Source: Brachionus manjavacas (Eukaryota > Rotifera > Eurotatoria > Ploima > Brachionidae). From it: a stretch of 64,000 bases of DNA. The DNA lies in the NCBI GenBank assembly GCA_019054805.1, contig JAHQIY010000044.1:158701-222700 (forward strand), written 5' to 3'. A program made the position numbers and the translations under genes. Every line of letters starts with the position of its first letter. Position 1 is the first letter of the stretch. Positions 2,239 to 64,000 of this stretch are shown in pieces. The notes below the pieces were generated by a model. It ran no database searches. It was not told the DNA's origin and was given only the letters and a program-made list of their open reading frames with translations.

Positions 2239-2447
2239 TCAATTTTGTAGCGTCGATCAGTCTTTTCAAAGTAAAATTGATATATATTTTTCTTTTAAAT
2301 CTTTTTTTTATTTTTAATTAATAATAATTATTTTTGTGTCTGAGATAATTTCAATTTTGTAGCGTCGATCAGTCTTTTCAAAGTAAAATTGATATATATT
2401 TTTCTTTTAAATCTTTTTTTTATTTTTAATTAATAATAATTATTTTT
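2239..2447. repeat. two-copy direct repeat, about 97 bp, period 112 bp
   Basis: The stretch beginning TCAATTTTGTAGCGTCGATC at 2239 is repeated almost exactly from 2351. Both copies continue through the same AT-rich tract ending TAATAATTATTTTT. A spacer of about 15 bases (GTGTCTGAGATAATT) separates them. The near identity suggests a recent local duplication. Confidence 0.85.
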
Positions 2448-7191: not shown

Positions 7192-7676
7192 ATGAACCAA
7201 AAAGAAATCAAGTTTCTTGGTATAAAATTTGATTCTAAGTTAAACTTTAATATACTAGTAGACGAAATTAAAGAACGCTGCAACAAAAGGCTAAATATTA
7301 TTAAGATATTGTCAAACGAAAAATGGGGTCTCAATCAAAACACACTTGGAAATTTATATAAATCTTTAGTCGGATCGATTTTAGACTATTCTTTTCCTTG
7401 CTTTAATTCATTTTCAGAAAATAATATCAAAAAACTACAAGCAATTCAGAATACAGCAGTAAGATCTATCTTTAAGTTAAAATATGATACTCCCTCCAAC
7501 ATCGTAACAATCTTTTCCAATTTATATCTTTTCAACTTTCATTTTTTTAGCTTATTTACTCTATTTTGATTCTTTTTTTTTATCTCATTTTATTAACTTT
7601 AATTTTATTTTTATTTTATTTTTTAACTTATTCTGAAGGAGCTTTAGCTCGGTAAAGAAAACAAATAAATAAATGG
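7192..7676 (+). mobile_element. 5'-truncated non-LTR retrotransposon (LINE), end of reverse transcriptase plus 3' tail
   Basis: A frame from 7192 to 7569 (125 codons) contains KFLGIKFDSKLNF, LYKSLVGSILDYS and LQAIQNTAVRSIFKLKYDTP. These match the C-terminal thumb region of reverse transcriptases of Jockey/CR1-like LINEs. The palm and catalytic YxDD motif, endonuclease and ORF1 are all absent, so the copy is dead. After the stop comes a T-rich 3' untranslated stretch, then TCTGAAGGAGCTTTAGCTCGG and an ACAAATAAATAAAT tail ending near 7676. The normal C-terminus may also be shortened, because the frame runs into T-rich sequence soon after the conserved block. Clade assignment is from motif memory only. 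Confidence 0.85.
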
Positions 7677-12249: not shown

Positions 12250-12319
12250 ACATGTCATTAGATAAACCTCCCATTTTATCAAATCTCATAATTCTTATTG
12301 TTTTTGAAAATAATTTTCT
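12250..12319 (+). repeat. decayed satellite-like boundary sequence
   Basis: ACATGTCATTAG (12250-12261) equals the start of a normal monomer. It is followed at 12267-12281 by CCTCCCATTTTATCA, close to the CCTCCCATTTTTTCA found just before the second core of each monomer. At 12302-12319 a further 18 bases (TTTTGAAAATAATTTTCT) match the AT-rich middle of the monomer and abut the first full unit. This looks like a scrambled, eroded edge of the array. Confidence 0.55.
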
Positions 12320-12876
12320 GTCATTAGCTCTTGCTTGCAAGCCTCCTTGCCCCGGCCGCTAGGCATCTGCATCATAACCGCCCCTCCTCATTTTCTCATC
12401 CGGACTTGGGACCGGCCAAAGGTAGAGTTAGCAGCTTTGCATTTTTATTTTGAAAATAATTTTCTTTAGATTCAAAATATTGGTTAAAAACAAATTGATC
12501 TAAAGAAAAATTACCTTATTCTTTTGTTGCTGTAAGTCTAAAAGACTATTTTTTCAAATAAAAGTTTTTGTTTTCTTTTCTCTCAACCTTTTGACAAAAC
12601 TCATCATTTATGTGCTGATTAGTCTCCCTCCCATTTTTTCATCCGGACTTGGGACCGGCATCGGTATGGTTACGACTCAACAATCTGCCGCCAAAGTTAC
12701 TATGGGACGTTCATCATAAACAGCGCCACTCATCCGAGCACTTAATGGCTGCGAACTCGACAACTATTTAGACTAGCTTGGAACCACAAACCAAGCGTAT
12801 CTATAGATGGATACAAGCATATCCAAAAAAAGTTACTTAACTTTTTTCACTAAGTACTAAGGGTCTGCCAGACATG

Positions 12877-13432
12877 TCATTAGCTCTTGCTTGCAAGCCT
12901 CCTTGCCCCGGCCGCTAGGCATCTGCATCATAACCGCCCCTCCTCATTTTCTCATCCGGACTTGGGACCGGCCAAAGGTAGAGTTAGCAGCTTTGCATTT
13001 TTATTTTGAAAATAATTTTCTTTAGATTCAAAATATTGGTTAAAAACAAAATGATCTAAAGAAAAATTACCTTATTCTTTTGTTGCTGTAAGTCTAAAAG
13101 ACTATTTTTTCAAATAAAAGTTTTTGTTTTCTTTTCTCTCAACCTTTTGACAAAACTCATCATTTATGTGCTGATTAGTCTCCCTCCCATTTTTTCATCC
13201 GGACTTGGGACCGGCATCGGTATGGTTACGACTCAACAATCTGCCGCCAAAGTTACTATGGGACGTTCATCATAAACAGCGTTACTCATCCGAGCACTTA
13301 ATGGCTGCGAACTCGACAACTATTTAGACTAGCTTGGAACCACAAACCAAGCGTATCTATAGATGGATACAAGCATATCCAAAAAAAGATACTTAACTTT
13401 TTTCACTAAGTACTAAGGGTCTGCCAGACATG
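12877..13432 (+). repeat. representative satellite monomer (unit 2)
   Basis: This unit maps the internal landmarks. Core 1 is 12956-12971 and core 2 is 13199-13214, a spacing of 243 bp. A 12-bp stem, TTTTCTTTAGAT (13016-13027) with ATCTAAAGAAAA (13054-13065), has a 26-base loop in the AT-rich part. Three small palindromes follow in the last 110 bp: GCTTGG/CCAAGC (13332-13352), GTATC/GATAC (13353-13370) and GTCTGCCAGAC (13419-13429). Unit 2 also carries private variants (ACAAAATGATC, AGCGTTACTC) shared with unit 32. Confidence 0.9.
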
Positions 13433-16208
13433 TCATTAGCTCTTGCTTGCAAGCCTCCTTGCCACGGCCGCTAGGCATCTGCATCATAACCGCCCCTCCT
13501 CATTTTCTCATCCGGACTTGGGACCGGCCAAAGGTAGAGTTAACAGCTTTGCATTTTTATTTTGAAAATAATTTTCTTTAGATTCAAAATATTGGTTAAA
13601 AACAAATTGATCTAAAGAAAAATTACCTTATTCTTTTGTTGCTGTAAGTCTAAAAGACTATTTTTTTCAAATAAAAGTTTTTGTTTTCTTTTCTCTCAAC
13701 CTTTTGACAAAACTCATCATTTATGTGCTGATTAGTCTCCCTCCCATTTTTTCATCCGGACTTGGGACCGGCATCGGTATGGTTACGACTCAACAATCTG
13801 CCGCCAAAGTTACTATGGGACGTTCATCATAAACAGCGCCACTCATCCGAGCACTTAATGGCTGCGAACTCGACAACTATTTAGACTAGCTTGGAACCAC
13901 AAACCAAGCGTATCTATAGATGGATACAAGCATATCCAAAAAGATACTTAACTTTTTTCACTAAGTACTAAGGGTCTGCCAGACATGTCATTAGCTCTTG
14001 CTTGCAAGCCTCCTTGCCCCGGCCGCTAGGCATCTGCATCATAACCGCCCCTCTTCATTTTCTCATCCGGACTTGGGACCGGCCAAAGGTAGAGTTAGCA
14101 GCTTTGCATTTTTATTTTGAAAATAATTTTCTTTAGATTCAAAATATTGGTTAAAAACAAATTGATCTAAAGAAAAATTACCTTATTCTTTTGTTGCTGT
14201 AAGTCTAAAAACTATTTTTTTCAAATAAAAGTTTTTGTTTTCTTTTCTCTCAATCTTTTGACAAAACTCATCATTTATGTGCTGATTAGTCTCCCTCCCA
14301 TTTTTTCATCCGGACTTGGGACCGGCATCGGTATGGTTACGACTCAACAATCTGCCGCCAAAGTTACTATGGGACGTTCATCATAAACAGCGTTACTCAT
14401 CCGAGCACTTAATGGCTGCGAACTCGACAACTATTTAGACTAGCTTGGAACCACAAACCAAGCGTATCTATAGATGGATACAAGCATATCCAAAAAAAGA
14501 TACTTAACTTTTTTCACTAAGTACTAAGGGTCTGCCAGACATGTCATTAGCTCTTGCTTGCAAGCCTCCTTGCCCCGGCCGCTAGGCATCTGCATCATAA
14601 CCGCCCCTCCTCATTTTCTCATCCGGACTTGGGACCGGCCAAAGGTAGAGTTAGCAGCTTTGCATTTTTATTTTGAAAATAATTTTCTTTAGATTCAAAA
14701 TATTGGTTAAAAACAAATTGATCTAAAGAAAAATTACCTTATTCTTTTGTTGCTGTAAGTCTAAAAGACTATTTTTTTCAAATAAAAGTTTTTGTTTTCT
14801 TTTCTCTCAACCTTTTGACAAAACTCATCATTTATGTGCTGATTAGTCTCCCTCCCATTTTTTCATCCGGACTTGGGACCGGCATCGGTATGGTTACGAC
14901 TCAACAATCTGCCGCCAAAGTTACTATGGGACGTTCATCATAAACAGCGTTACTCATCCGAGCACTTAATGGCTGCGAACTCGACAACTATTTAGACTAG
15001 CTTGGAACCACAAACCAAGCGTATCTATAGATGGATACAAGCATATCCAAAAAAGATACTTAACTTTTTCACTAAGTACTAAGGGTCTGCCAGACATGTC
15101 ATTAGCTCTTGCTTGCAAGCCTCCTTGCCCCGGCCGCTAGGCATCTGCATCATAACCGCCCCTCCTCATTTTCTCATCCGGACTTGGGACCGGCCAAAGG
15201 TAGAGTTAGCAGCTTTGCATTTTTATTTTGAAAATAATTTTCTTTAGATTCAAAATATTGGTTAAAAACAAATTGATCTAAAGAAAAATTACCTTATTCT
15301 TTTGTTGCTGTAAGTCTAAAAGACTATTTTTTTCAAATAAAAGTTTTTGTTTTCTTTTCTCTCAACCTTTTGACAAAACTCATCATTTATGTGCTGATTA
15401 GTCTCCCTCCCATTTTTCATCCGGACTTGGGACCGGCATCGGTATGGTTACGACTCAACAATCTGCCGCCAAAGTTACTATGGGACGTTCATCATAAACA
15501 GCGTGACTCATCAGAGCACTTAATGGCTGCGAACTCGACAACTTTTTAGACTAGCTTGGAACCACAAACCAAGCGTATCTATAGATGGATACAAGCATAT
15601 CCAAAAAAAGATACTTAACTTTTTTCACTAAGTACTAAGGGTCTGCCAGACATGTCATTAGCTCTTGCTTGCAAGCCTCCTTGCCCCGGCCGCTAGGCAT
15701 CTGCATCATAACCGCCCCTCCTCATTTTCTCATCCGGACTTGGGACCGGCCAAAGGTAGAGTTAGCAGCTTTGCATTTTTATTTTGAAAATAATTTTCTT
15801 TAGATTCAAAATATTGGTTAAAAACAAATTGATCTAAAGAAAAATTACCTTATTCTTTTGTTGCTGTAAGTCTAAAAACTATTTTTTTCAAATAAAAGTT
15901 TTTGTTTTCTTTTCTCTCAATCTTTTGACAAAACTCATCATTTATGTGCTGATTAGTCTCCCTCCCATTTTTTCATCCGGACTTGGGACCGGCATCGGTA
16001 TGGTTACGACTCAACAATCTGCCGCCAAAGTTACTATGGGACGTTCATCATAAACAGCGCCACTCATCCGAGCACTTAATGGCTGCGAACTCGACAACTA
16101 TTTAGACTAGCTTGGAACCACAAACCAAGCGTATCTATAGATGGATACAAGCATATCCAAAAAGATACTTAACTTTTTTCACTAAGTACTAAGGGTCTGC
16201 CAGACATG

Positions 16209-16744
16209 TCATTAGCTCTTGCTTGCAAGCCTCCTTGCCCCGGCCGCTAGGCATCTGCATCATAACCGCCCCTCCTCATTTTCTCATCCGGACTTGGGAC
16301 CGGCCAAAGGTAGAGTTAGCAGCTTTGCATTTTTATTTTGAAAATAATTTTCTTTAGATTCAAAATATTGGTTAAAAAACAAATTGATCTAAAGAAAAAT
16401 TACCTTATTCTTTTGTTGCTGTAAGTCTAAAAGACTATTTTTTTCAAATAAAAGTTTTTGTTTTCTTTTCTCTCAACCTTTTTACAAAACTCATCATTTA
16501 TGTGCTGATTAGTCTCCCTCCCATTTTTTCATCCGGACTTGGGACCGGCATCGGTATGGTAACGACTCAACAATCTGCCGCCAAAGTTACTATGGGACGT
16601 TCATCATAAACAGCGCCACTCATCCGAGCACTTAATGGCTGCGAACTCGATAACTATTTAGACTAGCTTGGAACCACAAACCAAGCATATCCAAAAAAAG
16701 ATACTTAACTTTTTTCACTAAGTACTAAGGGTCTGCCAGACATG
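16209..16744 (+). repeat. satellite unit 8 with 22-bp deletion
   Basis: The unit is 536 bp. It reads ACCAAGCATATCC where others have a 22-bp insert containing the GTATC/GATAC palindrome. The missing piece is flanked in normal units by the direct repeat CAAGC, so slippage or microhomology deletion fits. The same deletion is in the unit at 17858-18392. Confidence 0.9.
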
Positions 16745-17857
16745 TCATTAGCTCTTGCTTGCAAGCCTCCTTGCCCCGGCCGCTAGGCATCTGCATCATA
16801 ACCGCCCCTCTTCATTTTCTCATCCGGACTTGGGACCGGCCAAAGGTAGAGTTAGCAGCTTTGCATTTTTATTTTGAAAATAATTTTCTTTAGATTCAAA
16901 ATATTGGTTAAAAAACAAATTGATCTAAAGAAAAATTACCTTATTCTTTTGTTGCTGTAAGTCTAAAAGACTATTTTTTCAAATAAAAGTTTTTGTTTTC
17001 TTTTCTCTCAACCTTTTGACAAAACTCATCATTTATGTGCTGATTAGTCTCCCTCCCATTTTTTCATCCGGACTTGGGACCGGCATCGGTATGGTTACGA
17101 CTCAACAATCTGCCGCCAAAGTTACTATGGGACGTTCATCATAAACAGCGTGACTCATCAGAGCACTTAATGGCTGCGAACTCGACAACTTTTTAGACTA
17201 GCTTGGAACCACAAACCAAGCGTATCTATAGATGGATACAAGCATATCCAAAAAAAGATACTTAACTTTTTTCACTAAGTACTAAGGGTCTGCCAGACAT
17301 GTCATTAGCTCTTGCTTGCAAGCCTCCTTGCCCCGGCCGCTAGGCATCTGCATCATAACCGCCCCTCCTCATTTTCTCATCCGGACTTGGGACCGGCCAA
17401 AGGTAGAGTTAGCAGCTTTGCATTTTTATTTTGAAAATAATTTTCTTTAGATTCAAAATATTGGTTAAAAACAAATTGATCTAAAGAAAAATTACCTTAT
17501 TCTTTTGTTGCTGTAAGTCTAAAAACTATTTTTTTCAAATAAAAGTTTTTGTTTTCTTTTCTCTCAATCTTTTGACAAAACTCATCATTTATGTGCTGAT
17601 TAGTCTCCCTCCCATTTTTTCATCCGGACTTGGGACCGGCATCGGTATGGTTACGACTCAACAATCTGCCGCCAAAGTTACTATGGGACGTTCATCATAA
17701 ACAGCGCCACTCATCCGAGCACTTAATGGCTGCGAACTCGACAACTATTTAGACTAGCTTGGAACCACAAACCAAGCGTATCTATAGATGGATACAAGCA
17801 TATCCAAAAAAAGATACTTAACTTTTTTCACTAAGTACTAAGGGTCTGCCAGACATG

Positions 17858-18392
17858 TCATTAGCTCTTGCTTGCAAGCCTCCTTGCCCCGGCCGCTAGG
17901 CATCTGCATCATAACCGCCCCTCCTCATTTTCTCATCCGGACTTGGGACCGGCCAAAGGTAGAGTTAGCAGCTTTGCATTTTTATTTTGAAAATAATTTT
18001 CTTTAGATTCAAAATATTGGTTAAAAAACAAATTGATCTAAAGAAAAATTACCTTATTCTTTTGTTGCTGTAAGTCTAAAAGACTATTTTTTTCAAATAA
18101 AAGTTTTTGTTTTCTTTTCTCTCAACCTTTTTACAAAACTCATCATTTATGTGCTGATTAGTCTCCCTCCCATTTTTTCATCCGGACTTGGGACCGGCAT
18201 CGGTATGGTAACGACTCAACAATCTGCCGCCAAAGTTACTATGGGACGTTCATCATAAACAGCGCCACTCATCCGAGCACTTAATGGCTGCGAACTCGAT
18301 AACTATTTAGACTAGCTTGGAACCACAAACCAAGCATATCCAAAAAAGATACTTAACTTTTTTCACTAAGTACTAAGGGTCTGCCAGACATG
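17858..18392 (+). repeat. satellite unit 11, copy of the deletion unit
   Basis: The unit is 535 bp, with the same 22-bp deletion and the same three private substitutions as the unit at 16209. It therefore descends from that unit, or the reverse, rather than from an independent deletion. Confidence 0.9.
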
Positions 18393-21300
18393 TCATTAGC
18401 TCTTGCTTGCAAGCCTCCTTGCCCCGGCCGCTAGGCATCTGCATCATAACCGCCCCTCTTCATTTTCTCATCCGGACTTGGGACCGGCCAAAGGTAGAGT
18501 TAGCAGCTTTGCATTTTTATTTTGAAAATAATTTTCTTTAGATTCAAAATATTGGTTAAAAAACAAATTGATCTAAAGAAAAATTACCTTATTCTTTTGT
18601 TGCTGTAAGTCTAAAAGACTATTTTTTTCAAATAAAAGTTTTTGTTTTCTTTTCTCTCAACCTTTTGACAAAACTCATCATTTATGTGCTGATTAGTCTC
18701 CCTCCCATTTTTTCATCCGGACTTGGGACCGGCATCGGTATGGTTACGACTCAACAATCTGCCGCCAAAGTTACTATGGGACGTTCATCATAAACAGCGC
18801 CACTCATCCGAGCACTTAATGGCTGCGAACTCGACAACTATTTAGACTAGCTTGGAACCACAAACCAAGCGTATCTATAGATGGATACAAGCATATCCAA
18901 AAAAAGATACTTAACTTTTTCACTAAGTACTAAGGGTCTGCCAGACATGTCATTAGCTCTTGCTTGCAAGCCTCCTTGCCCCGGCCGCTAGGCATCTGCA
19001 TCATAACCGCCCCTCTTCATTTTCTCATCCGGACTTGGGACCGGCCAAAGGTAGAGTTAGCAGCTTTGCATTTTTATTTTGAAAATAATTTTCTTTAGAT
19101 TCAAAATATTGGTTAAAAAACAAATTGATCTAAAGAAAAATTACCTTATTCTTTTGTTGCTGTAAGTCTAAAAGACTATTTTTTTCAAATAAAAGTTTTT
19201 GTTTTCTTTTCTCTCAACCTTTTGACAAAACTCATCATTTATGTGCTGATTAGTCTCCCTCCCATTTTTTCATCCGGACTTGGGACCGGCATCGGTATGG
19301 TTACGACTCAACAATCTGCCGCCAAAGTTACTATGGGACGTTCATCATAAACAGCGCCACTCATCCGAGCACTTAATGGCTGCGAACTCGACAACTATTT
19401 AGACTAGCTTGGAACCACAAACCAAGCGTATCTATAGATGGATACAAGCATATCCAAAAAAGATACTTAACTTTTTCACTAAGTACTAAGGGTCTGCCAG
19501 ACATGTCATTAGCTCTTGCTTGCAAGCCTCCTTGCCCCGGCCGCTAGGCATCTGCATCATAACCGCCCCTCCTCATTTTCTCATCCGGACTTGGGACCGG
19601 CCAAAGGTAGAGTTAGCAGCTTTGCATTTTTATTTTGAAAATAATTTTCTTTAGATTCAAAATATTGGTTAAAAACAAATTGATCTAAAGAAAAATTACC
19701 TTATTCTTTTGTTGCTGTAAGTCTAAAAGACTATATTTTTCAAATAAAAGTTTTTGTTTTCTTTTCTCTCAACCTTTTGACAAAACTCATCATTTATGTG
19801 CTGATTAGTCTCCCTCCCATTTTTTCATCCGGTCTTGGGACCGGCATCGGTATGGTTACGACTCAACAATCTGCCGCCAAAGTTACTATGGGACGTTCAT
19901 CATAAACAGCGTTACTCATCCGAGCACTTAATGGCTGCGAACTCGACAACTATTTAGACTAGCTTGGAACCACAAACCAAGCGTATCTATAGATGGATAC
20001 AAGCATATCCAAAAAAGATACTTAACTTTTTTCACTAAGTACTAAGGGTCTGCCAGACATGTCATTAGCTCTTGCTTGCAAGCCTCCTTGCCCCGGCCGC
20101 TAGGCATCTGCATCATAACCGCCCCTCCTCATTTTCTCATCCGGACTTGGGACCGGCCAAAGGTAGAGTTAGCAGCTTTGCATTTTTATTTTGAAAATAA
20201 TTTTCTTTAGATTCAAAATATTGGTTAAAAACAAATTGATCTAAAGAAAAATTACCTTATTCTTTTGTTGCTGTAAGTCTAAAAGACTATTTTTTTCAAA
20301 TAAAAGTTTTTGTTTTCTTTTCTCTCAACCTTTTGACAAAACTCATCATTTATGTGCTGATTAGTCTCCCTCCCATTTTTTCATCCGGACTTGGGACCGG
20401 CATCGGTATGGTTACGACTCAACAATCTGCCGCCAAAGTTACTATGGGACGTTCATCATAAACAGCGCCACTCATCCGAGCACTTAATGGCTGCGAACTC
20501 GACAACTATTTAGACTAGCTTGGAACCACAAACCAAGCGTATCTATAGATGGATACAAGCATATCCAAAAAAGATACTTAACTTTTTCACTAAGTACTAA
20601 GGGTCTGCCAGACATGTCATTAGCTCTTGCTTGCAAGCCTCCTTGCCCCGGCCGCTAGGCATCTGCATCATAACCGCCCCTCCTCATTTTCTCATCCGGA
20701 CTTGGGACCGGCCAAAGGTAGAGTTAGCAGCTTTGCATTTTTATTTTGAAAATAATTTTCTTTAGATTCAAAATATTGGTTAAAAACAAATTGATCTAAA
20801 GAAAAATTACCTTATTCTTTTGTTGCTGTAAGTCTAAAAGACTATTTTTTTCAAATAAAAGTTTTTGTTTTCTTTTCTCTCAACCTTTTGACAAAACTCA
20901 TCATTTATGTGCTGATTAGTCTCCCTCCCATTTTTTCATCCGGTCTTGGGACCGGCATCGGTATGGTTACGACTCAACAATCTGCCGCCAAAGTTACTAT
21001 GGGACGTTCATCATAAACAGCGCCACTCATCCGAGCACTTAATGGCTGCGAACTCGACAACTTTTTAGACTAGCTTGGAACCACAAACCAAGCGTATCTA
21101 TAGATGGATACAAGCATATCCAAAAAAAGATACTTAACTTTTTTCACTAAGTACTAAGGGTCTGCCAGACATGTCATTAGCTCTTGCTTGCAAGCCTCCT
21201 TGCCCCGGCCGCTAGGCATCTGCATCATAACCGCCCCTCCTCATTTTCTCATCAGGACTTGGCACCGGCCAAAGGTAGAGTTAGCAGCTTTGCATTTTTA

Positions 21301-24300
21301 TTTTGAAAATAATTTTCTTTAGATTCAAAATATTGGTTAAAAACAAATTGATCTAAAGAAAAATTACCTTATTCTTTTGTTGCTGTAAGTCTAAAAGACT
21401 ATTTTTTTCAAATAAAAGTTTTTGTTTTCTTTTCTCTCAACCTTTTGACAAAACTCATCATTTATGTGCTGATTAGTCTCCCTCCCATTTTTTCATCCGG
21501 ACTTGGGACCGGCATCGGTATGGTTACGACTCAACAATCTGCCGCCAAAGTTACTATGGGACGTTCATCATAAACAGCGCCACTCATCCGAGCACTTAAT
21601 GGCTGTGAACTCGACAACTATTTAGACTAGCTTGGAACCACAAACCAAGCGTATCTATAGATGGATACAAGCATATCCAAAAAGATACTTAACTTTTTTC
21701 ACTAAGTACTAAGGGTCTGCCAGACATGTCATTAGCTCTTGCTTGCAAGCCTCCTTGCCCCGGCCGCTAGGCATCTGCATCATAACCGCCCCTCCTCATT
21801 TTCTCATCCGGACTTGGGACCGGCCAAAGGTAGAGTTAGCAGCTTTGCATTTTTATTTTGAAAATAATTTTCTTTAGATTCAAAATATTGGTTAAAAACA
21901 AATTGATCTAAAGAAAAATTACCTTATTCTTTTGTTGCTGTAAGTCTAAAAGACTATTTTTTTCAAATAAAAGTTTTTGTTTTCTTTTCTCTCAACCTTT
22001 TGACAAAACTCATCATTTATGTGCTGATTAGTCTCCCTCCCATTTTTTCATCCGGTCTTGGGACCGGCATCGGTATGGTTACGACTCAACAATCTGCCGC
22101 CAAAGTTACTATGGGACGTTCATCATAAACAGCGCCACTCATCAGAGCACTTAATGGCTGCGAACTCGACAACTTTTTAGACTAGCTTGGAACCACAAAC
22201 CAAGCGTATCTATAGATGGATACAAGCATATCCAAAAAAAGATACTTAACTTTTTTCACTAAGTACTAAGGGTCTGCCAGACATGTCATTAGCTCTTGCT
22301 TGCAAGCCTCCTTGCCCCGGCCGCTAGGCATCTGCATCATAACCGCCCCTCCTCATTTTCTCATCCGGACTTGGGACCGGCCAAAGGTAGAGTTAGCAGC
22401 TTTGCATTTTTATTTTGAAAATAATTTTCTTTAGATTCAAAATAATGGTTAAAAACGAATTGATCTAAACAAAAATTACCTTATTCTTTTGTTGCTGTAA
22501 GTCTTAAAGACTATTTTTTTCAAATAAAAGTTTTTGTTTTCTTTTCTCTCAACCTTTTGACAAAACTCATCATTTATGTGCTGATTAGTCTCCCTCCCAT
22601 TTTTCATCCGGACTTGGGACCGGCATCGGTATGGTTACGACTCAACAATCTGCCGCCAAAGTTACTATGGGACGTTCATCATAAACAGCGCCACTCATCC
22701 GAGCACTTAATGGCTGCGAACTCGACAACTATTTAGACTAGCTTGGAACCACAAACCAAGCGTATCTATAGATGGATACAAGCATATCCAAAAAAGATAC
22801 TTAACTTTTTTCACTAAGTACTAAGGGTCTGCCAGACATGTCATTAGCTCTTGCTTGCAAGCCTCCTTGCCCCGGCCGCTAGGCATCTGCATCATAACCG
22901 CCCCTCCTCATTTTCTCATCCGGACTTGGGACCGGCCAAAGGTAGAGTTAGCAGCTTTGCATTTTTATTTTGAAAATAATTTTCTTTAGATTCAAAATAT
23001 TGGTTAAAAACGAATTGATCTAAACAAAAATTACCTTATTCTTTTTGTTGCTGTAAGTCTAAAAGACTATTTTTTCAAATAAAAGTTTTTGTTTTCTTTT
23101 CTCTCAACCTTTTGACAAAACTCATCATTTATGTGCTGATTAGTCTCCCTCCCATTTTTTCATCCGGACTTGGGACCGGCATCGGTATGGTTACGACTCA
23201 ACAATCTGCCGCCAAAGTTACTATGGGACGTTCATCATAAACAGCGCCACTCATCCGAGCACTTAATGGCTGCGAACTCGACAACTATTTAGACTAGCTT
23301 GGAACCACAAACCAAGCGTATCTATAGATGGATACAAGCATATCCAAAAAAGATACTTAACTTTTTCACTAAGTACTAAGGGTCTGCCAGACATGTCATT
23401 AGCTCTTGCTTGCAAGCCTCCTTGCCCCGGCCGCTAGGCATCTGCATCATAACCGCCCCTCCTCATTTTCTCATCCGGACTTGGGACCGGCCAAAGGTAG
23501 AGTTAGCAGCTTTGCATTTTTATTTTGAAAATAATTTTCTTTAGATTCAAAATATTGGTTAAAAACAAATTGATCTAAAGAAAAATTACCTTATTCTTTT
23601 GTTGCTGTAAGTCTAAAAGACTATTTTTTCAAATAAAAGTTTTTGTTTTCTTTTCTCTCAACCTTTTGACAAAACTCATCATTTATGTGCTGATTAGTCT
23701 CCCTCCCATTTTTTCATCCGGACTTGGGACCGGCATCGGTATGGTTACGACTCAACAATCTGCCGCCAAGGTTACTATGGGACGTTCATCATAAACAGCG
23801 CCACTCATCCGAGCACTTAATGGCTGCGAACTCGACAACTATTTAGACTAGCTTGGAACCACAAACCAAGCGTATCTATAGATGGATACAAGCATATCCA
23901 AAAAAAGATACTTAACTTTTTTCACTAAGTACTAAGGGTCTGCCAGACATGTCATTAGCTCTTGCTTGCAAGCCTCCTTGCCCCGGCCGCTAGGTATCTG
24001 CATCATAACCGCCCCTCCTCATTTTCTCATCCGGACTTGGGACCGGCCAAAGGTAGAGTTAGCAGCTTTGCATTTTTATTTTGAAAATAATTTTCTTTAG
24101 ATTCAAAATATTGGTTAAAAACAAATTGATCTAAAGAAAAATTACCTTATTCTTTTGTTGCTGTAAGTCTAAAAGACTATTTTTTCAAATAAAAGTTTTT
24201 GTTTTCTTTTCTCTCAACCTTTTGACAAAACTCATCATTTATGTGCTGATTAGTCTCCCTCCCATTTTTTCATCCGGACTTGGGACCGGCATCGGTATGG

Positions 24301-51300: not shown

Positions 51301-54300
51301 GCTTTGCATTTTTATTTTGAAAATAATTTTCTTTAGATTCAAAATATTGGTTAAAAAAAACAAATTGATCTAAAGAAAAATTACCTTATTCTTTTGTTGC
51401 TGTAAGTCTAAAAGACTATTTTTTTCAAATAAAAGTTTTTGTTTTCTTTTCTCTCAACCTTTTGACAAAACTCATCATTTATGTGCTGATTAGTCTCCTC
51501 CCATTTTTTCATCCGGACTTGGGACCGGCATCGGTATGGTTACGACTCAACAATCTGCCGCCAAAGTTACTATGGGACGTTCATCATAAACAGCGCCACT
51601 CATCCGAGCACTTAATGGCTGCGAACTCGACAACTATTTAGACTAGCTTGGAACCACAAACCAAGCGTATCTATAGATGGATACAAGCATATCCAAAAAA
51701 AGATACTTAACTTTTTTCACTAAGTACTAAGGGTCTGCCAGACATGTCATTAGCTCTTGCTTGCAAGCCTCCTTGCCCCGGCCGCTAGGCATCTGCATCA
51801 TAACCGCCCCTCCTCATTTTCTCATCCGGACTTGGGACCGGCCAAAGGTAGAGTTAGCAGCTTTGCATTTTTATTTTGAAAATAATTTTCTTTAGATTCA
51901 AAATATTGGTTAAAAACAAATTGATCTAAAGAAAAATTACCTTATTCTTTTGTTGCTGTAAGTCTAAAAGACTATTTTTTCAAATAAAAGTTTTTGTTTT
52001 CTTTTCTCTCAACCTTTTGACAAAACTCATCATTTATGTGCTGATTAGTCTCCCTCCCATTTTTTCATCCGGACTTGGGACCGGCATCGGTATGGTTACG
52101 ACTCAACAATCTGCCGCCAAAGTTACTATGGGACGTTCATCATAAACAGCGCCACTCATCCGAGCACTTAATGGCTGCGAACTCGACAACTATTTAGACT
52201 AGCTTGGAACCACAAACCAAGCGTATCTATAGATGGATACAAGCATATCCAAAAAAAGATACTTAACTTTTTTTCACTAAGTACTAAGGGTCTGCCAGAC
52301 ATGTCATTAGCTCTTGCTTGCAAGCCTCCTTGCCCCGGCCGCTAGGCATCTGCATCATAACCGCCCCTCCTCATTTTCTCATCCGGACTTGGGACCGGCC
52401 AAAGGTAGAGTTAGCAGCTTTGCATTTTTTTTTTTAAAAAAAATTTTCTTTAGATTCAAACTATTGGTTAAAAACAAATTGATCTAAAGAAAAATTACCT
52501 TATTCTTTTGTTGCTGTAAGTCTAAAAGACTATTTTTTCAAATAAAAGTTTTTGTTTTCTTTTCTCTCAACCTTTTGACAAAACTCATCATTTATGTGCT
52601 GATTAGTCTCCCTCCCATTTTTTCATCCGGACTTGGGACCGGCATCGGTATGGTTACGACTCAACAATCTGCCGCCAAAGTTACTATGGGACGTTCATCA
52701 TAAACAGCGCCACTCATCCGAGCACTTAATGGCTGCGAACTCGACAACTATTTAGACTAGCTTGGAACCACAAACCAAGCGTATCTATAGATGGATACAA
52801 GCATATCCAAAAAAGATACTTAACTTTTTTCACTAAGTACTAAGGGTCTGCCAGACATGTCATTAGCTCTTGCTTGCAAGCCTCCTTGCCCCGGCCGCTA
52901 GGCATCTGCATCATAACCGCCCCTCCTCATTTTCTCATCCGGACTTGGGACCGGCCAAAGGTAGAGTTAGCAGCTTTGCATTTTTATTTTGAAAATAATT
53001 TTCTTTAGATTCAAAATATTGGTTAAAAACAAATTGATCTAAAGAAAAATTACCTTATTCTTTTGTTGCTGTAAGTCTAAAAGACTATTTTTTTCAAATA
53101 AAAGTTTTTGTTTTCTTTTCTCTCAACCTTTTGACAAAACTCATCATTTATGTGCTGATTAGTCTCCTCCCATTTTTTCATCCGGACTTGGGACCGGCAT
53201 CGGTATGGTTACGACTCAACAATCTGCCGCCAAAGTTACTATGGGACGTTCATCATAAACAGCGCCACTCATCCGAGCACTTAATGGCTGCGAACTCGAC
53301 AACTATTTAGACTAGCTTGGAACCACAAACCAAGCGTATCTATAGATGGATACAAGCATATCCAAAAAAAGATACTTAACTTTTTTCACTAAGTACTAAG
53401 GGTCTGCCAGACATGTCATTAGCTCTTGCTTGCAAGCCTCCTTGCCCCGGCCGCTAGGCATCTGCATCATAACCGCCCCTCCTCATTTTCTCATCCGGAC
53501 TTGGGACCGGCCAAAGGTAGAGTTAGCAGCTTTGCATTTTTATTTTGAAAATAATTTTCTTTAGATTCAAAATATTGGTTAAAAACAAATTGATCTAAAG
53601 AAAAATTACCTTATTCTTTTGTTGCTGTAAGTCTAAAAGACTATTTTTTTCAAATAAAAGTTTTTGTTTTCTTTTCTCTCAACCTTTTGACAAAACTCAT
53701 CATTTATGTGCTGATTAGTCTCCCTCCCATTTTTTCATCCGGACTTGGGACCGGCATCGGTATGGTTACGACTCAACAATCTGCCGCCAAAGTTACTATG
53801 GGACGTTCATCATAAACAGCGCCACTCATCCGAGCACTTAATGGCTGCGAACTCGACAACTATTTAGACTAGCTTGGAACCACAAACCAAGCGTATCTAT
53901 AGATGGATACAAGCATATCCAAAAAAAGATACTTAACTTTTTCACTAAGTACTAAGGGTCTGCCAGACATGTCATTAGCTCTTGCTTGCAAGCCTCCTTG
54001 CCCCGGCCGCTAGGCATCTGCATCATAACCGCCCCTCCTCATTTTCTCATCCGGACTTGGGACCGGCCAAAGGTAGAGTTAGCAGCTTTGCATTTTTATT
54101 TTGAAAATAATTTTCTTTAGATTCAAAATATTGGTTAAAAACAAATTGATCTAAAGAAAAATTACCTTATTCTTTTGTTGCTGTAAGTCTAAAAGACTAT
54201 TTTTTTCAAATAAAAGTTTTTGTTTTCTTTTCTCTCAACCTTTTGACAAAACTCATCATTTATGTGCTGATTAGTCTCCCTCCCATTTTTTTCATCCGGA

Positions 54301-57300
54301 CTTGGGACCGGCATCGGTATGGTTACGACTCAACAATCTGCCGCCAAAGTTACTATGGGACGTTCATCATAAACAGCGCCACTCATCCGAGCACTTAATG
54401 GCTGCGAACTCGACAACTATTTAGACTAGCTTGGAACCACAAACCAAGCGTATCTATAGATGGATACAAGCATATCCAAAAAAAGATACTTAACTTTTTC
54501 ACTAAGTACTAAGGGTCTGCCAGACATGTCATTAGCTCTTGCTTGCAAGCCTCCTTGCCCCGGCCGCTAGGCATCTGCATCATAACCGCCCCTCCTCATT
54601 TTCTCATCCGGACTTGGGACCGGCCAAAGGTAGAGTTAGCAGCTTTGCATTTTTATTTTGAAAATAATTTTCTTTAGATTCAAAATATTGGTTAAAAACA
54701 AATTGATCTAAAGAAAAATTACCTTATTCTTTTGTTGCTGTAAGTCTAAAAGACTATTTTTTTCAAATAAAAGTTTTTGTTTTCTTTTCTCTCAACCTTT
54801 TGACAAAACTCATCATTTATGTGCTGATTAGTCTCCTCCCATTTTTTCATCCGGACTTGGGACCGGCATCGGTATGGTTACGACTCAACAATCTGCCGCC
54901 AAAGTTACTATGGGACGTTCATCATAAACAGCGCCACTCATCCGAGCACTTAATGGCTGCGAACTCGACAACTATTTAGACTAGCTTGGAACCACAAACC
55001 AAGCGTATCTATAGATGGATACAAGCATATCCAAAAAAAGATACTTAACTTTTTCACTAAGTACTAAGGGTCTGCCAGACATGTCATTAGCTCTTGCTTG
55101 CAAGCCTCCTTGCCCCGGCCGCTAGGCATCTGCATCATAACCGCCCCTCCTCATTTTCTCATCCGGACTTGGGACCGGCCAAAGGTAGAGTTAGCAGCTT
55201 TGCATTTTTATTTTGAAAATAATTTTCTTTAGATTCAAAATATTGGTTAAAAACAAATTGATCTAAAGAAAAATTACCTTATTCTTTTGTTGCTGTAAGT
55301 CTAAAAGACTATTTTTTTCAAATAAAAGTTTTTGTTTTCTTTTCTCTCAACCTTTTGACAAAACTCATCATTTATGTGCTGATTAGTCTCCCTCCCATTT
55401 TTTCATCCGGACTTGGGACCGGCATCGGTATGGTTACGACTCAACAATCTGCCGCCAAAGTTACTATGGGACGTTCATCATAAACAGCGCCACTCATCCG
55501 AGCACTTAATGGCTGCGAACTCGACAACTATTTAGACTAGCTTGGAACCACAAACCAAGCGTATCTATAGATGGATACAAGCATATCCAAAAAAGATACT
55601 TAACTTTTTCACTAAGTACTAAGGGTCTGCCAGACATGTCATTAGCTCTTGCTTGCAAGCCTCCTTGCCCCGGCCGCTAGGCATCTGCATCATAACCGCC
55701 CCTCCTCATTTTCTCATCCGGACTTGGGACCGGCCAAAGGTAGAGTTAGCAGCTTTGCATTTTTATTTTGAAAATAATTTTCTTTAGATTCAAAATATTG
55801 GTTAAAAACAAATTGATCTAAAGAAAAATTACCTTATTCTTTTGTTGCTGTAAGTCTAAAAGACTATTTTTTTCAAATAAAAGTTTTTGTTTTCTTTTCT
55901 CTCAACCTTTTGACAAAACTCATCATTTATGTGCTGATTAGTCTCCCTCCCATTTTTTCATCCGGACTTGGGACCGGCATCGGTATGGTTACGACTCAAC
56001 AATCTGCCGCCAAAGTTACTATGGGACGTTCATCATAAACAGCGCCACTCATCCGAGCACTTAATGGCTGCGAACTCGACAACTATTTAGACTAGCTTGG
56101 AACCACAAACCAAGCGTATCTATAGATGGATACAAGCATATCCAAAAAAAGATACTTAACTTTTTTTCACTAAGTACTAAGGGTCTGCCAGACATGTCAT
56201 TAGCTCTTGCTTTGCAAGCCTCCTTGCCCCGGCCGCTAGGCATCTGCATCATAACCGCCCCTCCTCATTTTCTCATCCGGACTTGGGACCGGCCAAAGGT
56301 AGAGTTAGCAGCTTTGCATTTTTATTTTGAAAATAATTTTCTTTAGATTCAAAATATTGGTTAAAAACAAATTGATCTAAAGAAAAATTACCTTATTCTT
56401 TTGTTGCTGTAAGTCTAAAAGACTATTTTTTTCAAATAAAAGTTTTTGTTTTCTTTTCTCTCAACCTTTTGACAAAACTCATCATTTATGTGCTGATTAG
56501 TCTCCCTCCCATTTTTTCATCCGGACTTGGGACCGGCATCGGTATGGTTACGACTCAACAATCTGCCGCCAAAGTTACTATGGGACGTTCATCATAAACA
56601 GCGCCACTCATCCGAGCACTTAATGGCTGCGAACTCGACAACTATTTAGACTAGCTTGGAACCACAAACCAAGCGTATCTATAGATGGATACAAGCATAT
56701 CCAAAAAGATACTTAACTTTTTCACTAAGTACTAAGGGTCTGCCAGACATGTCATTAGCTCTTGCTTGCAAGCCTCCTTGCCCCGGCCGCTAGGCATCTG
56801 CATCATAACCGCCCCTCCTCATTTTCTCATCCGGACTTGGGACCGGCCAAAGGTAGAGTTAGCAGCTTTGCATTTTTATTTTGAAAATAATTTTCTTTAG
56901 ATTCAAAATATTGGTTAAAAACAAATTGATCTAAAGAAAAATTACCTTATTCTTTTGTTGCTGTAAGTCTAAAAGACTATTTTTTTCAAATAAAAGTTTT
57001 TGTTTTCTTTTCTCTCAACCTTTTGACAAAACTCATCATTTATGTGCTGATTAGTCTCCCTCCCATTTTTTCATCCGGACTTGGGACCGGCATCGGTATG
57101 GTTACGACTCAACAATCTGCCGCCAAAGTTACTATGGGACGTTCATCATAAACAGCGCCACTCATCCGAGCACTTAATGGCTGCGAACTCGACAACTATT
57201 TAGACTAGCTTGGAACCACAAACCAAGCGTATCTATAGATGGATACAAGCATATCCAAAAAAGATACTTAACTTTTTTCACTAAGTACTAAGGGTCTGCC

Positions 57301-60300
57301 AGACATGTCATTAGCTCTTGCTTGCAAGCCTCCTTGCCCCGGCCGCTAGGCATCTGCATCATAACCGCCCCTCCTCATTTTCTCATCCGGACTTGGGACC
57401 GGCCAAAGGTAGAGTTAGCAGCTTTGCATTTTTATTTTTGAAAATAATTTTCTTTAGATTCAAAATATTGGTTAAAAAACAAATTGATCTAAAGAAAAAT
57501 TACCTTATTCTTTTGTTGCTGTAAGTCTAAAAGACTATTTTTTTCAAATAAAAGTTTTTGTTTTCTTTTCTCTCAACCTTTTGACAAAACTCATCATTTA
57601 TGTGCTGATTAGTCTCCCTCCCATTTTTTCATCCGGACTTGGGACCGGCATCGGTATGGTTACGACTCAACAATCTGCCGCCAAAGTTACTATGGGACGT
57701 TCATCATAAACAGCGCCACTCATCCGAGCACTTAATGGCTGCGAACTCGACAACTATTTAGACTAGCTTGGAACCACAAACCAAGCGTATCTATAGATGG
57801 ATACAAGCATATCCAAAAAAAGATACTTAACTTTTTTCACTAAGTACTAAGGGTCTGCCAGACATGTCATTAGTTCTTGCTTGCAAGCCTCCTTGCCCCG
57901 GCCGCTAGGCATCTGCATCATAACCGCCACTCCTCATTTTCTCATCCGGACTTGGGACCGGCCAAAGGTAGAGTTAGCAGCTTTGCATTTTTATTTTGAA
58001 AATAATTTTCTTTAGATTCAAAATATTGGTTAAAAACAAATTGATCTAAAGAAAAATTACCTTATTCTTTTGTTGCTGTAAGTCTAAAAGACTATTTTTT
58101 TCAAATAAAAGTTTTTGTTTTCTTTTCTCTCAACCTTTTGACAAAACTCATCATTTATGTGCTGATTAGTCTCCTCCCATTTTTTCATCCGGACTTGGGA
58201 CCGGCATCGGTATGGTTACGACTCAACAATCTGCCGCCAAAGTTACTATGGGACGTTCATCATAAACAGCGCCACTCATCCGAGCACTTAATGGCTGCGA
58301 ACTCGACAACTATTTAGACTAGCTTGGAACCACAAACCAAGCGTATCTATAGATGGATACAAGCATATCCAAAAAAGATACTTAACTTTTTCACTAAGTA
58401 CTAAGGGTCTGCCAGACATGTCATTAGCTCTTGCTTGCAAGCCTCCTTGCCCCGGCCGCTAGGCATCTGCATCATAACCGCCCTCCTCATTTTCTCATCC
58501 GGACTTGGGACCGGCCAAAGGTAGAGTTAGCAGCTTTGCATTTTTATTTTGAAAATAATTTTCTTTAGATTCAAAATATTGGTTAAAAACAAATTGATCT
58601 AAAGAAAAATTACCTTATTCTTTTGTTGCTGTAAGTCTAAAAGACTATTTTTTTCAAATAAAAGTTTTTGTTTTCTTTTCTCTCAACCTTTTGACAAAAC
58701 TCATCATTTATGTGCTGATTAGTCTCCCTCCCATTTTTTCATCCGGACTTGGGACCGGCATCGGTATGGTTACGACTCAACAATCTGCCGCCAAAGTTAC
58801 TATGGGACGTTCATCATAAACAGCGCCACTCATCCGAGCACTTAATGGCTGCGAACTCGACAACTATTTAGACTAGCTTGGAACCACAAACCAAGCGTAT
58901 CTATAGATGGATACAAGCATATCCAAAAAAGATACTTAACTTTTTTCACTAAGTACTAAGGGTCTGCCAGACATGTCATTAGCTCTTGCTTGCAAGCCTC
59001 CTTGCCCCGGCCGCTAGGCATCTGCATCATAACCGCCCCTCCTCATTTTCTCATCCGGACTTGGGACCGGCCAAAGGTAGAGTTAGCAGCTTTGCATTTT
59101 TATTTTGAAAATAATTTTCTTTAGATTCAAAATATTGGTTAAAAACGAATTGATCTAAAGAAAAATTACCTTATTCTTTTGTTGCTGTAAGTCTAAAAGA
59201 CTATTTTTTTCAAAAAAAGTTGTTGTTTTCATTTCTCTCAACCTTTTGACAAAACTCATCATTTATGTGCTGATTAGTCTCACTCCCATTTTTTCATCCG
59301 GACTTGGGACCGGCATCGGTATGGTTACGACTCAACAATCTGCCGCCAAAGTTACTATGGGACGTTCATCATAAACAGCGCCACTCATCCGAGCACTTAA
59401 TGGCTGCGAACTCGACAACTATTTAGACTAGCTTGGAACCACAAACCAAGCGTATCTATAGATGGATACAAGCATATCCAAAAGAGATACTTAACTTTTT
59501 TCACTAAGTACTAAGGGTCTGCCAGACATGTCATTAGCTCTTGCTTGCAAGCCTCCTTGCCCCGGCCGCTAGGCATCTGCATCATAACCGCCCCTCCTCA
59601 TTTTCTCATCCGGACTTGGGACCGGCCAAAGGTAGAGTTAGCAGCTTTGCATTTTTATTTTGAAAATAATTTTCTTTAGATTCAAAATATTGGTTAAAAA
59701 CGAATTGATCTAAAGAAAAATTACCTTATTCTTTTGTTGCTGTAAGTCTAAAAGACTATTTTTTCAAATAAAAAGTTTTTGTTTTCTTTTCTCTCAACCT
59801 TTTGACAAAACTCATCATTTATGTGCTGATTAGTCTCCTCCCATTTTTTCATCCGGACTTGGGACCGGCATCGGTATGGTTACGACTCAACAATCTGCCG
59901 CCAAAGTTACTATGGGACGTTCATCATAAACAGCGCCACTCATCCGAGCACTTAATGGCTGCGAACTCGACAACTATTTAGACTAGCTTGGAACTTCACA
60001 AAACCAAGCGTATCTATAGATGGATACAAGCATATCCAAAAAAAGATACTTAACTTTTTTCACTAAGTACTAAGGGTCTGCCAGACATGTCATTAGCTCT
60101 TGCTTGCAAGCCTCCTTGCCCCGGCCGCTAGGCATCTGCATCATAACCGCCCCTCCTCATTTTCTCATCCGGACTTGGGACCGGCCAAAGGTAGAGTTAG
60201 CAGCTTTGCATTTTTATTTTGAAAATAATTTTCTTTAGATTCAAAATATTGGTTAAAAACGAATTGATCTAAAGAAAAATTACCTTATTCTTTTTGTTGC

Positions 60301-62876
60301 TGTAAGTCTAAAAGACTATTTTTTTCAAATAAAAGTTTTTGTTTTCTTTTTCTCTCAACCTTTTGACAAAACTCATCATTTATGTGCTGATTAGTCTCCC
60401 TCCCATTTTTTCATCCGGACTTGGGACCGGCATCGGTATGGTTACGACTCAACAATCTGCCGCCAAAGTTACTATGGGACGTTCATCATAAACAGCGCCA
60501 CTCATCCGAGCACTTAATGGCTGCGAACTCGACAACTATTTAGACTAGCTTGGAACCACAAACCAAGCGTATCTATAGATGGATACAAGCATATCCAAAA
60601 AAAGATACTTAACTTTTTTCACTAAGTACTAAGGGTCTGCCAGACATGTCATTAGTTCTTGCTTGCAAGCCTCCTTGCCCCCGGCCGCTAGGCATCTGCA
60701 TCATAACCGCCCCTCCTCATTTTCTCATCCGGACTTGGGACCGGCCAAAGGTAGAGTTAGCAGCTTTGCATTTTTATTTTGAAAATAATTTTCTTTTAGA
60801 TTCAAAATATTGGTTAAAAACGAATTGATCTAAAGAAAAATTACCTTATTCTTTTGTTGCTGTAAGTCTAAAAGACTATTTTTTTCAAATAAAAGTTTTT
60901 GTTTTCTTTTCTCTCAACCTTTTGACAAAACTCATCATTTATGTGCTGATTAGTCTCCCTCCCATTTTTTCATCCGGACTTGGGACCGGCATCGGTATGG
61001 TTACGACTCAACAATCTGCCGCCAAAGTTACTATGGGACGTTCATCATAAACAGCGCCACTCATCCGAGCACTTAATGGCTGCGAACTCGACAACTATTT
61101 AGACTAGCTTGGAACCACAAACCAAGCGTATCTATAGATGGATACAAGCATATCCAAAAAAGATACTTAACTTTTTCACTAAGTACTAAGGGTCTGCCAG
61201 ACATGTCATTAGCTCTTGCTTGCAAGCCTCCTTGCCCCGGCCGCTAGGCATCTGCATCATAACCGCCCCTCCTCATTTTCTCATCCGGACTTGGGACCGG
61301 CCAAAGGTAGAGTTAGCAGCTTTGCATTTTTATTTTGAAAATAATTTTCTTTAGATTCAAAATATTGGTTAAAAACAAATTGATCTAAAGAAAAAATTAC
61401 CTTATTCTTTTGTTGCTGTAAGTCTAAAAGACTATTTTTTTCAAATAAAAGTTTTTGTTTTCTTTTCTCTCAACCTTTTGACAAAACTCATCATTTATGT
61501 GCTGATTAGTCTCCCTCCCATTTTTTCATCCGGACTTGGGACCGGCATCGGTATGGTTACGACTCAACAATCTGCCGCCAAAGTTACTATGGGACGTTCA
61601 TCATAAACAGCGCCACTCATCCGAGCACTTAATGGCTGCGAACTCGACAACTATTTAGACTAGCTTGGAACCACAAACCAAGCGTATCTATAGATGGATA
61701 CAAGCATATCCAAAAAAGATACTTCACTTTTTTCACTAATTACTAAGGGTCTGCCAGACATGTCATTAGCTCTTGCTTGCAAGCCTCCTTGCCCCGGCCG
61801 CTAGGCATCTGCATCATAACCGCCCCATCCCATTTTCTCATCCGGACTTGGGACCGGCCAAAGGTAGAGTTAGCAGCTTTGCATTTTTATTTTGAAAATA
61901 ATTTTCTTTAGATTCAAAATATTGGTTAAAAACAAATTGATCTAAAGAAAAATTACCTTATTCTTTTGTTGCTGTAAGTCTAAAAGACTATTTTTTTCAA
62001 ATAAAAGTTTTTGTTTTCTTTTCTCTCAACCTTTTGACAAAACTCATCATTTATGTGCTGATTAGTCTCCCTCCCATTTTTTCATCCGGACTTGGGACCG
62101 GCATCGGTATGGTTACGACTCAACAATCTGCCGCCAAAGTTACTATGGGACGTTCATCATAAACAGCGCCACTCATCCGAGCACTTAATGGCTGCGAACT
62201 CGACAACTATTTAGACTAGCTTGGAACCACAAACCAAGCGTATCTATAGATGGATACAAGCATATCCAAAAGAGATACTTAACTTTTTTCACTAAGTACT
62301 AAGGGTCTGCCAGACATGTCATTAGCTCTTGCTTGCAAGCCTCCTTGCCCCGGCCGCTAGGCATCTGCATCATAACCGCCCCTCCTCATTTTCTCATCCG
62401 GACTTGGGACCGGCCAAAGGTAGAGTTAGCAGCTTTGCATTTTTATTTTGAAAATAATTTTCTTTAGATTCAAAATATTGGTTAAAAACAAATTGATCTA
62501 AAGAAAAATTACCTTATTCTTTTGTTGCTGTAAGTCTAAAAGACTATTTTTTTCAAATAAAAGTTGTTGTTTTCATTTCTCTCAACCTTTTGACAAAACT
62601 CATCATTTATGTGCTGATTAGTCTCACTCCCATTTTTTCATCCGGACTTGGGACCGGCATCGGTATGGTTACGACTCAACAATCTGCCGCCAAAGTTACT
62701 ATGGGACGTTCATCATAAACAGCGCCACTCATCCGAGCACTTAATGGCTGCGAACTCGACAACTATTTAGACTAGCTTGGAACCACAAACCAAGCGTATC
62801 TATAGATGGATACAAGCATACCCAAAAATAAGATACTTAACTTTTTTCACTAAGTACTAAGGGTCTGCCAGACATG

Positions 62877-64000
62877 TCATTAGCTCCTTGCTTGGCAAGC
62901 CTCCTTTGCTCCCGGCCAGGCTGCTAGGCATCTGCATCATAACCGCCCCTCACTCATTTTCTCATCCGGACTTGGGACCGGCCAAAGGTAGAGTTAGCAG
63001 CTTTGCATTTTTTATTTTGAAAATAATTTTTCTTTAGATTCAAAATATTGGTTAAAGAAACGAATTGATCTAAAGAAAAAATTACTCTTGTATTCTTTTG
63101 TTGCTGTAAGTCTAAAAGACTATTTTTTTCAAATAAAAGTTTTTGTTTTTCATTTCTCTCAACCTTTTTGACAAACCAACTCATCATTTATGTGCTGATT
63201 AGTCTCCTCTCCATTTTTTTCATCCCGGACTTGGGACCGGCATCGGTATGGTTACGACTCAACAATCTGCCGCCAAAGTTACTATGGGACGTTCATCATA
63301 AACAGCGCCACTCATCCGAGCACTTAATGGCTGCGGAACTCGACAACTATTTAGACTAGCTTGGAACCACAAACCAAGCGTATCTATAGATGGATACAAG
63401 CATATCCAAAAAAAGATACTTAACTTTTTCACTAAGTACTAAGGGTCTGCCAGACATAAGTCATTAGCTCTTGCTTGCAAGCCTCCTTGCCCCCGGCCAA
63501 GCTAGGCATCTGCATCATAACCGCCCCTCCTCATTTTCTCTCATCCGGACTTGGGACCGGCCAAAGGTAGAGTTAGCAGCTTTGCAGGGCTTTTTTATTT
63601 TGAAAATAATTTTCTTTTTAGATTCAAAATATTGGTTAAAAACAAATTGATTCTAAAGAAAAAATTACCTTATTCTTTTTGTTGCTGTAAGTCTAAAAGA
63701 CTATTTTTTTCAAATAAAAGTTTTTGTTTTCTTTTCTTCCAACCTTTTGACAAAACTCATCATTTATGTGATTATTAGTCTCCCTCCCATTTTTTCATCC
63801 GGACTTGGGACCGGCATCGGTATGGTTACGACTCAACAATCTGCCGCCAAAGGCTATGGTGGACGTTCATCATAAACAGCGCCACTCATCCGAGCAATTC
63901 TTAATGGCTGCGAACTCGACAACTATTTAGACTAGCTTGGAACCACAAACCAAGCGTAGTATCTATAGATGGATACAAGCATATCCAAAAAAGATACTTA
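62877..64000 (+). repeat. degenerate last two satellite units
   Basis: Compared with the rest of the array, these units have many 1-5 base changes, mostly insertions: AGCTCCTTGCTTGGCAAGCC, CCGGCCAGGCTGCTAGG, CAGACATAAGTCATT, TTTGCAGGGCTTTTTT, GAGCAATTCTTAATGG and GCGTAGTATC. The overall monomer plan is intact. The change is abrupt at about 62,880. Read error at a poorly covered contig end is the simplest explanation; real divergence at an array edge is the alternative. Confidence 0.8.

Follow-up and report, generated by a model that had tools for sequence, protein, structure and literature searches.

A Brachionus manjavacas satellite with a RAGATH-11 RNA between two twister ribozyme motifs in almost every monomer

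Introduction

The hammerhead ribozymes of animal satellite DNA, known from a newt report of 1987, have reportedly been a puzzle ever since, and retrozymes are said to be the proposed answer. The locus described here was found in a window of 64,000 nucleotides (the whole stretch of DNA that was analysed) of the rotifer Brachionus manjavacas, and its main feature is a long tandem satellite array. The closest described systems are the metazoan hammerhead retrozymes and satellites of newt, Schistosoma and Dolichopoda (PMC7229834, PMC7761336, PMC4918200). As far as the available portions of these papers go, the array resembles them in that an RNA of a few hundred nucleotides is expected, RtcB is the likely ligase and no coding capacity is seen. 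Unlike the hammerhead retrozymes, the array carries a twister in place of the hammerhead, has two ribozymes per monomer around a conserved RAGATH-11 domain and has linkers that differ between modules; its circles are a prediction, and nine dispersed copies, whose exact ends are uncertain, yielded no target-site duplications. The array shares with retrozymes the feature of a short, non-coding tandem repeat with ribozyme motifs, although the ribozyme class differs. Since the layout is that of retrozymes but the hammerhead is absent, we do not file the family as a retrozyme; by analogy, it may work like one.

Two other systems are relevant. Small circular RNAs from metatranscriptomes also bear twisters in RNAs of a few hundred nucleotides; in the accessible text of that study (PMC8216279), they have a hairpin ribozyme on the opposite strand, whereas in the array nothing was seen on the opposite strand and the unit is genomic DNA. 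In Brachionus asplanchnoidis, rotiSat1 and rotiSat2 are abundant satellites with 154- and 143-bp monomers (PMC8447722, available in part). Like the array, they are large and of raised G+C content in an AT-rich animal genome; the portion of that paper at hand mentions no ribozyme, and they are set apart from the array by description only. Twisters are treated in PMC10085705 and PMC4918200, in whose available portions the present arrangement does not occur.

Results

A sequence-only reading of the window had described a large, homogeneous, one-direction satellite with a 556-bp monomer over at least 51.7 kb, without a conserved reading frame and in AT-rich gene surroundings, and our analysis bore this out. 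Unique sequence gives way to the tandem array (12320..64000; RNA sense, minus strand) at base 12,320, and the array continues from there to the contig end, as delimited by the Rfam scan and by the periodicity analysis, which gave a peak period of 556 bp. All 93 TW1 cut motifs in the array (TW1 is introduced below) face the same direction, and the 92 units between these cuts are mostly 556 bp (33 units), 555 bp (20) or 557 bp (19) long, with extremes of 535 and 579 bp; the mean pairwise identity of the units was 98.7% in 500 sampled pairs. The G+C content is 38–40% in the array versus approximately 25% in most of the left flank, whose 12.3 kb hold genes for a Wnt, a CARM1-like arginine methyltransferase and a CTP_transf_1 protein as identified by Pfam. 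No open reading frame of more than 50 amino acids was present in the stretch tested (20,000–22,300).

Because the window's right end is also the end of its contig (C44; 222,700 bp), the length of the array is a lower bound. The first 43.6 kb or so of another contig, C18, consist of this array, likewise oriented, so that, judged by sequence, the two contig ends may belong to a single array of ~95 kb or more. The identity of the last two C44 units was 0.974 and 0.952 to the array consensus versus 0.922–0.948 to the two units at the C18 start; since they are no closer to the C18 start than to the consensus, contiguity of the two contigs is unproved. That one contig ends, and another begins, in a long stretch of homogeneous repeats would fit a structural satellite, centromeric, subtelomeric or belonging to an accessory chromosome, to which the RNA motifs described below would be irrelevant. 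We consider this highly improbable, given that the genome contains several arrays of different period, including an oppositely oriented one at C44:126–132 kb, ~40 kb from the window array of the same contig, as well as scattered copies.

Scanning both strands of the window against Rfam returned 93 matches, all of them to RAGATH-11 (RF03148) and all on the minus strand. These matches span model positions 1–116 of 116 and score 92.2–104.3 bits versus a gathering score of 79.4, as represented by the copy at 12697..12817 (minus strand, 104.3 bits). A permissive Rfam scan of 12,280–13,450 added four twister-P1 matches on the minus strand, one at 44.9 and one at 41.3 bits in each monomer. The first type-P1 twister motif, TW1, is represented by 12934..12990 (minus strand; 44.9 bits, E 2e-8), with a predicted cut just before base 12985 in the minus-strand reading, and by 12378..12434 in the left-most monomer (minus strand; 44.9 bits; predicted cut just before base 12429). 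The second, TW2, is represented by 12622..12676 (minus strand; 41.3 bits, E 2.2e-7), with a predicted cut just before base 12671 in the minus-strand reading. Outside 12,280–13,450, twister counts are motif-based, not model-based: all cores lie on the minus strand of the array, 184 exact twister cores plus one variant (185) and 92 exact RAGATH cores, and the motif search found neither core to the left of the array. The two Rfam scans, of the window and of 12,280–13,450, detected no RNA motif on the plus strand and no hammerhead. In RNA order, the unit reads TW1, ~116 nt, RAGATH-11, TW2, an AT-rich linker of ~187 nt and the next TW1, the linker differing between arrays and being placed at 12435..12621 (no strand assigned) from the Rfam match positions and the array comparison. 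As judged by these matches, the monomer places one RAGATH-11 RNA between two type-P1 twister ribozyme motifs. The sequence-only reading had recognised no known satellite; the repeat does stand as a satellite, and the genome contains several of its arrays, but this content of its minus strand had been overlooked.

The predicted cuts split an array transcript into pieces of mostly 312–314 nt and 242–244 nt. We lean towards the view that the satellite is a tandem-amplified, small RNA-forming and retrozyme-like unit, whose transcripts self-cleave and whose RNA is perhaps circularised, with dispersed copies arising via RNA and arrays via DNA. A minus-strand transcript of the array would cut itself twice per monomer and would thereby free an RNA of ~313 nt that contains the TW1 core and RAGATH-11 and bears a 5'-hydroxyl and a 2',3'-cyclic phosphate; the representative predicted RNA lies between the TW1 and TW2 cuts (12672..12985, minus strand, 314 nt). 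The second product would be an AT-rich spacer RNA of ~243 nt. Array transcripts probably cut themselves into such small RNAs, and these may close into circles, as their ends would be substrates of RtcB and the host RtcB ligase could join them, as in the case of hammerhead retrozymes. A gene for RtcB is indicated by two adjacent matches on contig C5, with E-values of 2.7e-112 and 8e-35 and scores above the cut-off, which we read as two exons. Dispersed copies would have spread through RNA, and arrays would have formed later by DNA-level amplification of the unit together with some local flank.

We examined whether the predicted RNA could pair at its termini. Four dispersed copies (L013, L073, L028 and L083) were checked, and in all of them the ends can re-form a 7-bp P1, in which the 3' end of the RNA pairs with the strand downstream of TW1 so that the two ends are brought together; the chance of this in one fixed register is 0.001, a value that applies to a pairing first spotted by eye and to four related copies. 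In the three arrays checked, 0 bp of P1 was re-formed. The minimum-energy fold of the released RNA pairs both ends together at an unremarkable energy (z of −1.38 against windowed shuffles), and the AT-rich spacer had a z of −2.67 by the same measure.

The assignment of the two ribozyme motifs was examined by covariation. Matches to the twister-P1 model (RF03160) score 30.9–51.4 bits (E 0.0073 to 9e-9), and none reaches the gathering score of 67.2. The array motifs are like type P1 in the U|AA cut site and in the expected order of P1, P2, P4 and the pseudoknots T1 and T2, and unlike it in having no P3 hairpin, a longer A-rich stretch between P4 and P2 and scores below the cut-off. P1, P2 and T2 were taken to be the helices that define a twister, and U|AA was assumed to be the cut site. 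Aligned at a fixed U|AA register, the sequences retrieved contained 437 matches, with some places counted more than once as loci overlap; these reduced to 30 distinct sets of helix strands, none of which was dropped. Pairing in cis was 4.00 of 5 versus 2.78 permuted for P1, 2.73 of 3 versus 2.29 for P2, and 1.87 of 2 versus 1.64 for T2; for each helix, 0 of 20,000 permutations reached the cis value, which is no strict probability since the copies are related. Hand-chosen sets (24 and 12, excluding some one-off variants with broken helices) led to the same conclusion. Furthermore, P1 is fully different between separate loci (GGUCC/GGAUC, CAUCA/UGAUG and GCUGC/GCGGU), and T2 switches from GC/GC to AC/GU. 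P1, P2 and T2 are kept by compensating changes across diverged copies, and the predicted twister folds are supported by covariation. Among window copies found by anchor, the tested helices are intact in 82 of 92 TW1 and 63 of 90 TW2 (three more anchors could not be assigned, and the TW2 check skipped the pair next to the cut, a G-A mismatch). One G of the conserved GGG is missing from 19 TW2 copies of the window array versus 70 with the full motif, so that some copies of TW2 may lack activity.

The RAGATH-11 copies are full-length matches far over the cut-off of RF03148, and they differ from that model in an upstream AAAGUUAAG, an enclosing helix in dispersed copies and a fixed downstream twister partner. 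The AAAGUUAAG motif lies just upstream of the first hairpin of the Rfam model in most copies. Flanks could be measured in 13 loci. In 10 of these (L075, L077, L078, L079, L083, L084, L085, L087, L013 and L024), the sequences flanking AAAGUUAAG and the 3' end of the model form a helix of 6–12 pairs, G-U allowed; the helix is short elsewhere, with 3 pairs in L026 and 1 each in L080 and L089. With L076, L081 and L082 (which do not have the AAAGUUAAG motif) and L009 (a near-duplicate of L013) excluded, 0 of 20,000 permutations of the partners reached the mean helix length, and 1 of 20,000 did so for the nine diverged copies alone. The satellite-type copy in this test was L089, in which the enclosing helix is absent; the window's own copies lay outside the test. 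We conclude from these pairings that RAGATH-11 has, in dispersed copies, a covarying enclosing helix beyond the Rfam model.

Next, the abundance of the motifs was assessed in the 114-Mb assembly. Exact RAGATH-11 cores numbered 770, and exact pairs, in which a twister start and core come after a RAGATH-11 tail, numbered 717 (0 in the reversed control for both), and there were 1,443 exact twister cores (control 0). The patterns behind 717 and 770 differ, so that their ratio is only rough, and the majority of the counts come from arrays, with many further copies dispersed. The search revealed other arrays and dispersed copies, with which the reading of the satellite as a single-locus assembly artefact falls. 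RAGATH-11 and twister-P1 were found in 0 of 14 control genomes, and hammerhead type I had no genome-wide match in a search run without a positive control. In viral contigs, 22 stretches contained the 17-letter RAGATH-11 core (15 fixed bases) and 0 of 22 the downstream GAACGT, and they were judged to be chance. The one match in bacterial and archaeal contigs (L092) was likewise judged by eye to be chance, as the rest of the motif was absent from the 300 bases viewed.

Copies on contigs C9, C11, C12 and C27 share an element of ~530–730 bp in otherwise different flanks, in which TW1 and TW2 are ~400 nt apart and RAGATH-11 lies just before TW2. For one copy on C17 (L083), similarity stops near the outer P1 strands, as judged by eye. 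Fifteen further places (L075–L089) were picked among the first matches listed; RAGATH-11 was found at E ≤ 0.01 in 14 of them, and a twister at E ≤ 0.01 in 6 (L079, L083, L084, L086, L087 and L088, the last with a twister only). By eye, the twisters of L075, L076 and L085 are decayed, and L077, L078, L080, L081, L082 and L089 have none. No target-site duplication was found in nine dispersed copies; the longest words shared by the two flanks were 5–7 nt versus a mean of 6.8 and a maximum of 11 for mismatched flanks, with the exact ends of the elements being uncertain.

The dispersed copies also bear on a possible non-LTR origin, in which the module would be the 5' end or 5' UTR of an autonomous retrotransposon of this class, comparable to truncated RTE twisters, and the satellite would derive from such ends. 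RTE 5'-end twisters are mentioned as work in preparation in the available part of PMC7761336, and fragments of the same LINE lie downstream of the module or twister in the C12 group (L013) and in L088. However, this LINE is present in great numbers (7,210 candidates at first look, 150 of which were scored), two long copies of it (L105 and L106, 6.5 kb each) contain no twister/RAGATH-11 motif or Rfam match at E ≤ 0.1, and 11 other copies (L094–L104) show no motif with 1.5-kb flanks included. We regard such an origin as very unlikely overall; the absence of the module from these two long and 11 other copies rejects it for one LINE family only.

Finally, one unit each was compared from four arrays, namely the window consensus, C44:126–132 kb (554 bp), C18:191–194 kb (541 bp) and C24 (642 bp). 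The segment that begins at the TW1 cut and closes with the P1 of TW2 is 365 bp in each of the four units and 94.3–99.5% identical, and the linkers are 192, 189, 176 and 277 bp, respectively. Linker identities of 0.90, 0.77 and 0.80 among the first three arrays indicate that these linkers are related, so that the contrast between module and linker rests on C24 and the dispersed copies. The C24 linker was 0.47–0.49 identical to the other three, versus shuffled means of 0.44–0.45 and maxima of 0.464–0.479 (20 shuffles each). By this comparison, the conserved module between arrays is bounded by the two ribozymes, and the unrelated linkers speak for amplification of the arrays as DNA and against rolling-circle copying of RNA.

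Within the window array, the non-consensus fraction was 0.0073 for the core versus 0.0041 for the linker; because conservation of the core does not exceed that of the linker, there is no sign in this array of present selection on the core. Such equal homogeneity would fit a satellite maintained purely at the DNA level, derived from an old ribozyme-bearing insertion and homogenised by unequal exchange or gene conversion, with the ribozymes as passengers. The same explanation would cover the spread across the array of the TW2 allele that lacks one G, the amplification of linkers along with the core, and the absence of target-site duplications from the nine copies. It does not readily account for conservation between arrays that ends at the two ribozymes, for compensating changes that keep the helices in diverged copies, or for the intact helices counted above in the window, and we consider it rather unlikely.

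Discussion

In the literature searched, which did not extend to the original RAGATH and twister papers, we found no RAGATH-11 paper and no account of a twister/RAGATH-11 satellite, and an animal satellite of twisters bounding RAGATH-11 is thus without a description there. The retrozyme-like model that we favour has its basis in the RAGATH-11 matches, the twister folds supported by covariation, the ribozyme-bounded module, the dispersed copies and the RtcB gene, from which we infer transcription, cleavage, circularisation and RNA-mediated movement.

A more far-reaching and distinctly tentative proposal, doubtful as it stands, is that animals harbour a family of RNA replicons with RAGATH-11 as their cargo, in which a ribozyme-bounded circle would be copied into DNA at many sites and satellites would arise as by-products. 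If so, RAGATH-11 would be the feature that the copying enzyme or the ligase recognises, and this orphan RNA would gain its first biological setting. With an animal host and a constant twister partner, RAGATH-11 becomes an RNA whose function can be tested. If the retrozyme-like model is true, ribozyme-bounded small RNAs would be a general source of satellites, and the logic of retrozymes would have been reached from an unrelated ribozyme.

Left flank and left edge of the array

At the left edge of the satellite array of ~556-bp monomers, 18 bp of linker, the AT-rich sequence that separates successive core modules, lies immediately outside the array (window 12300-12320) and adjoins a truncated core; either the edge monomer has suffered a deletion or this is a microhomology junction. 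Farther out in the left flank, a 112-bp unit is duplicated in tandem with a 100% match at window 2239-2447, where the surrounding DNA is AT-rich. In addition, an ORF at window 7192-7566, for which no Pfam match was obtained, resembles by eye the 3' portion of a LINE that is abundant in this genome; the LINE family, that of genomic locus L088, has 7,210 first-look candidates in the genome.

Other arrays and dispersed copies

The satellite family also forms a smaller array on the window's contig, ~40 kb from the window's array and in the opposite orientation (C44:126309-131687). On contig C24, a short unit of 327 bp (L050:906-1233) within the array of 642-bp units carries a twister and lacks RAGATH-11.

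Among the dispersed, non-array copies, one RAGATH-11 copy lies at most ~0.4 kb from a U5 snRNA (L084:556-668), and another lies within the same distance of a tRNA (L075:585-656). At L073 (contig C9) and L074 (contig C11), repeats spaced 5.67 and 5.70 kb apart, with 99.6-99.7% identity, each contain one dispersed element, and LINE-like ORFs are present. Furthermore, RAGATH-11 occurs without a twister at L077 (contig C4) and L078 (contig C6), where the enclosing helix, a pairing that flanks RAGATH-11 outside the Rfam model, comprises 11 and 10 Watson-Crick pairs, respectively. At these two loci, the RAGATH-11 domain looks as if it were free-standing.
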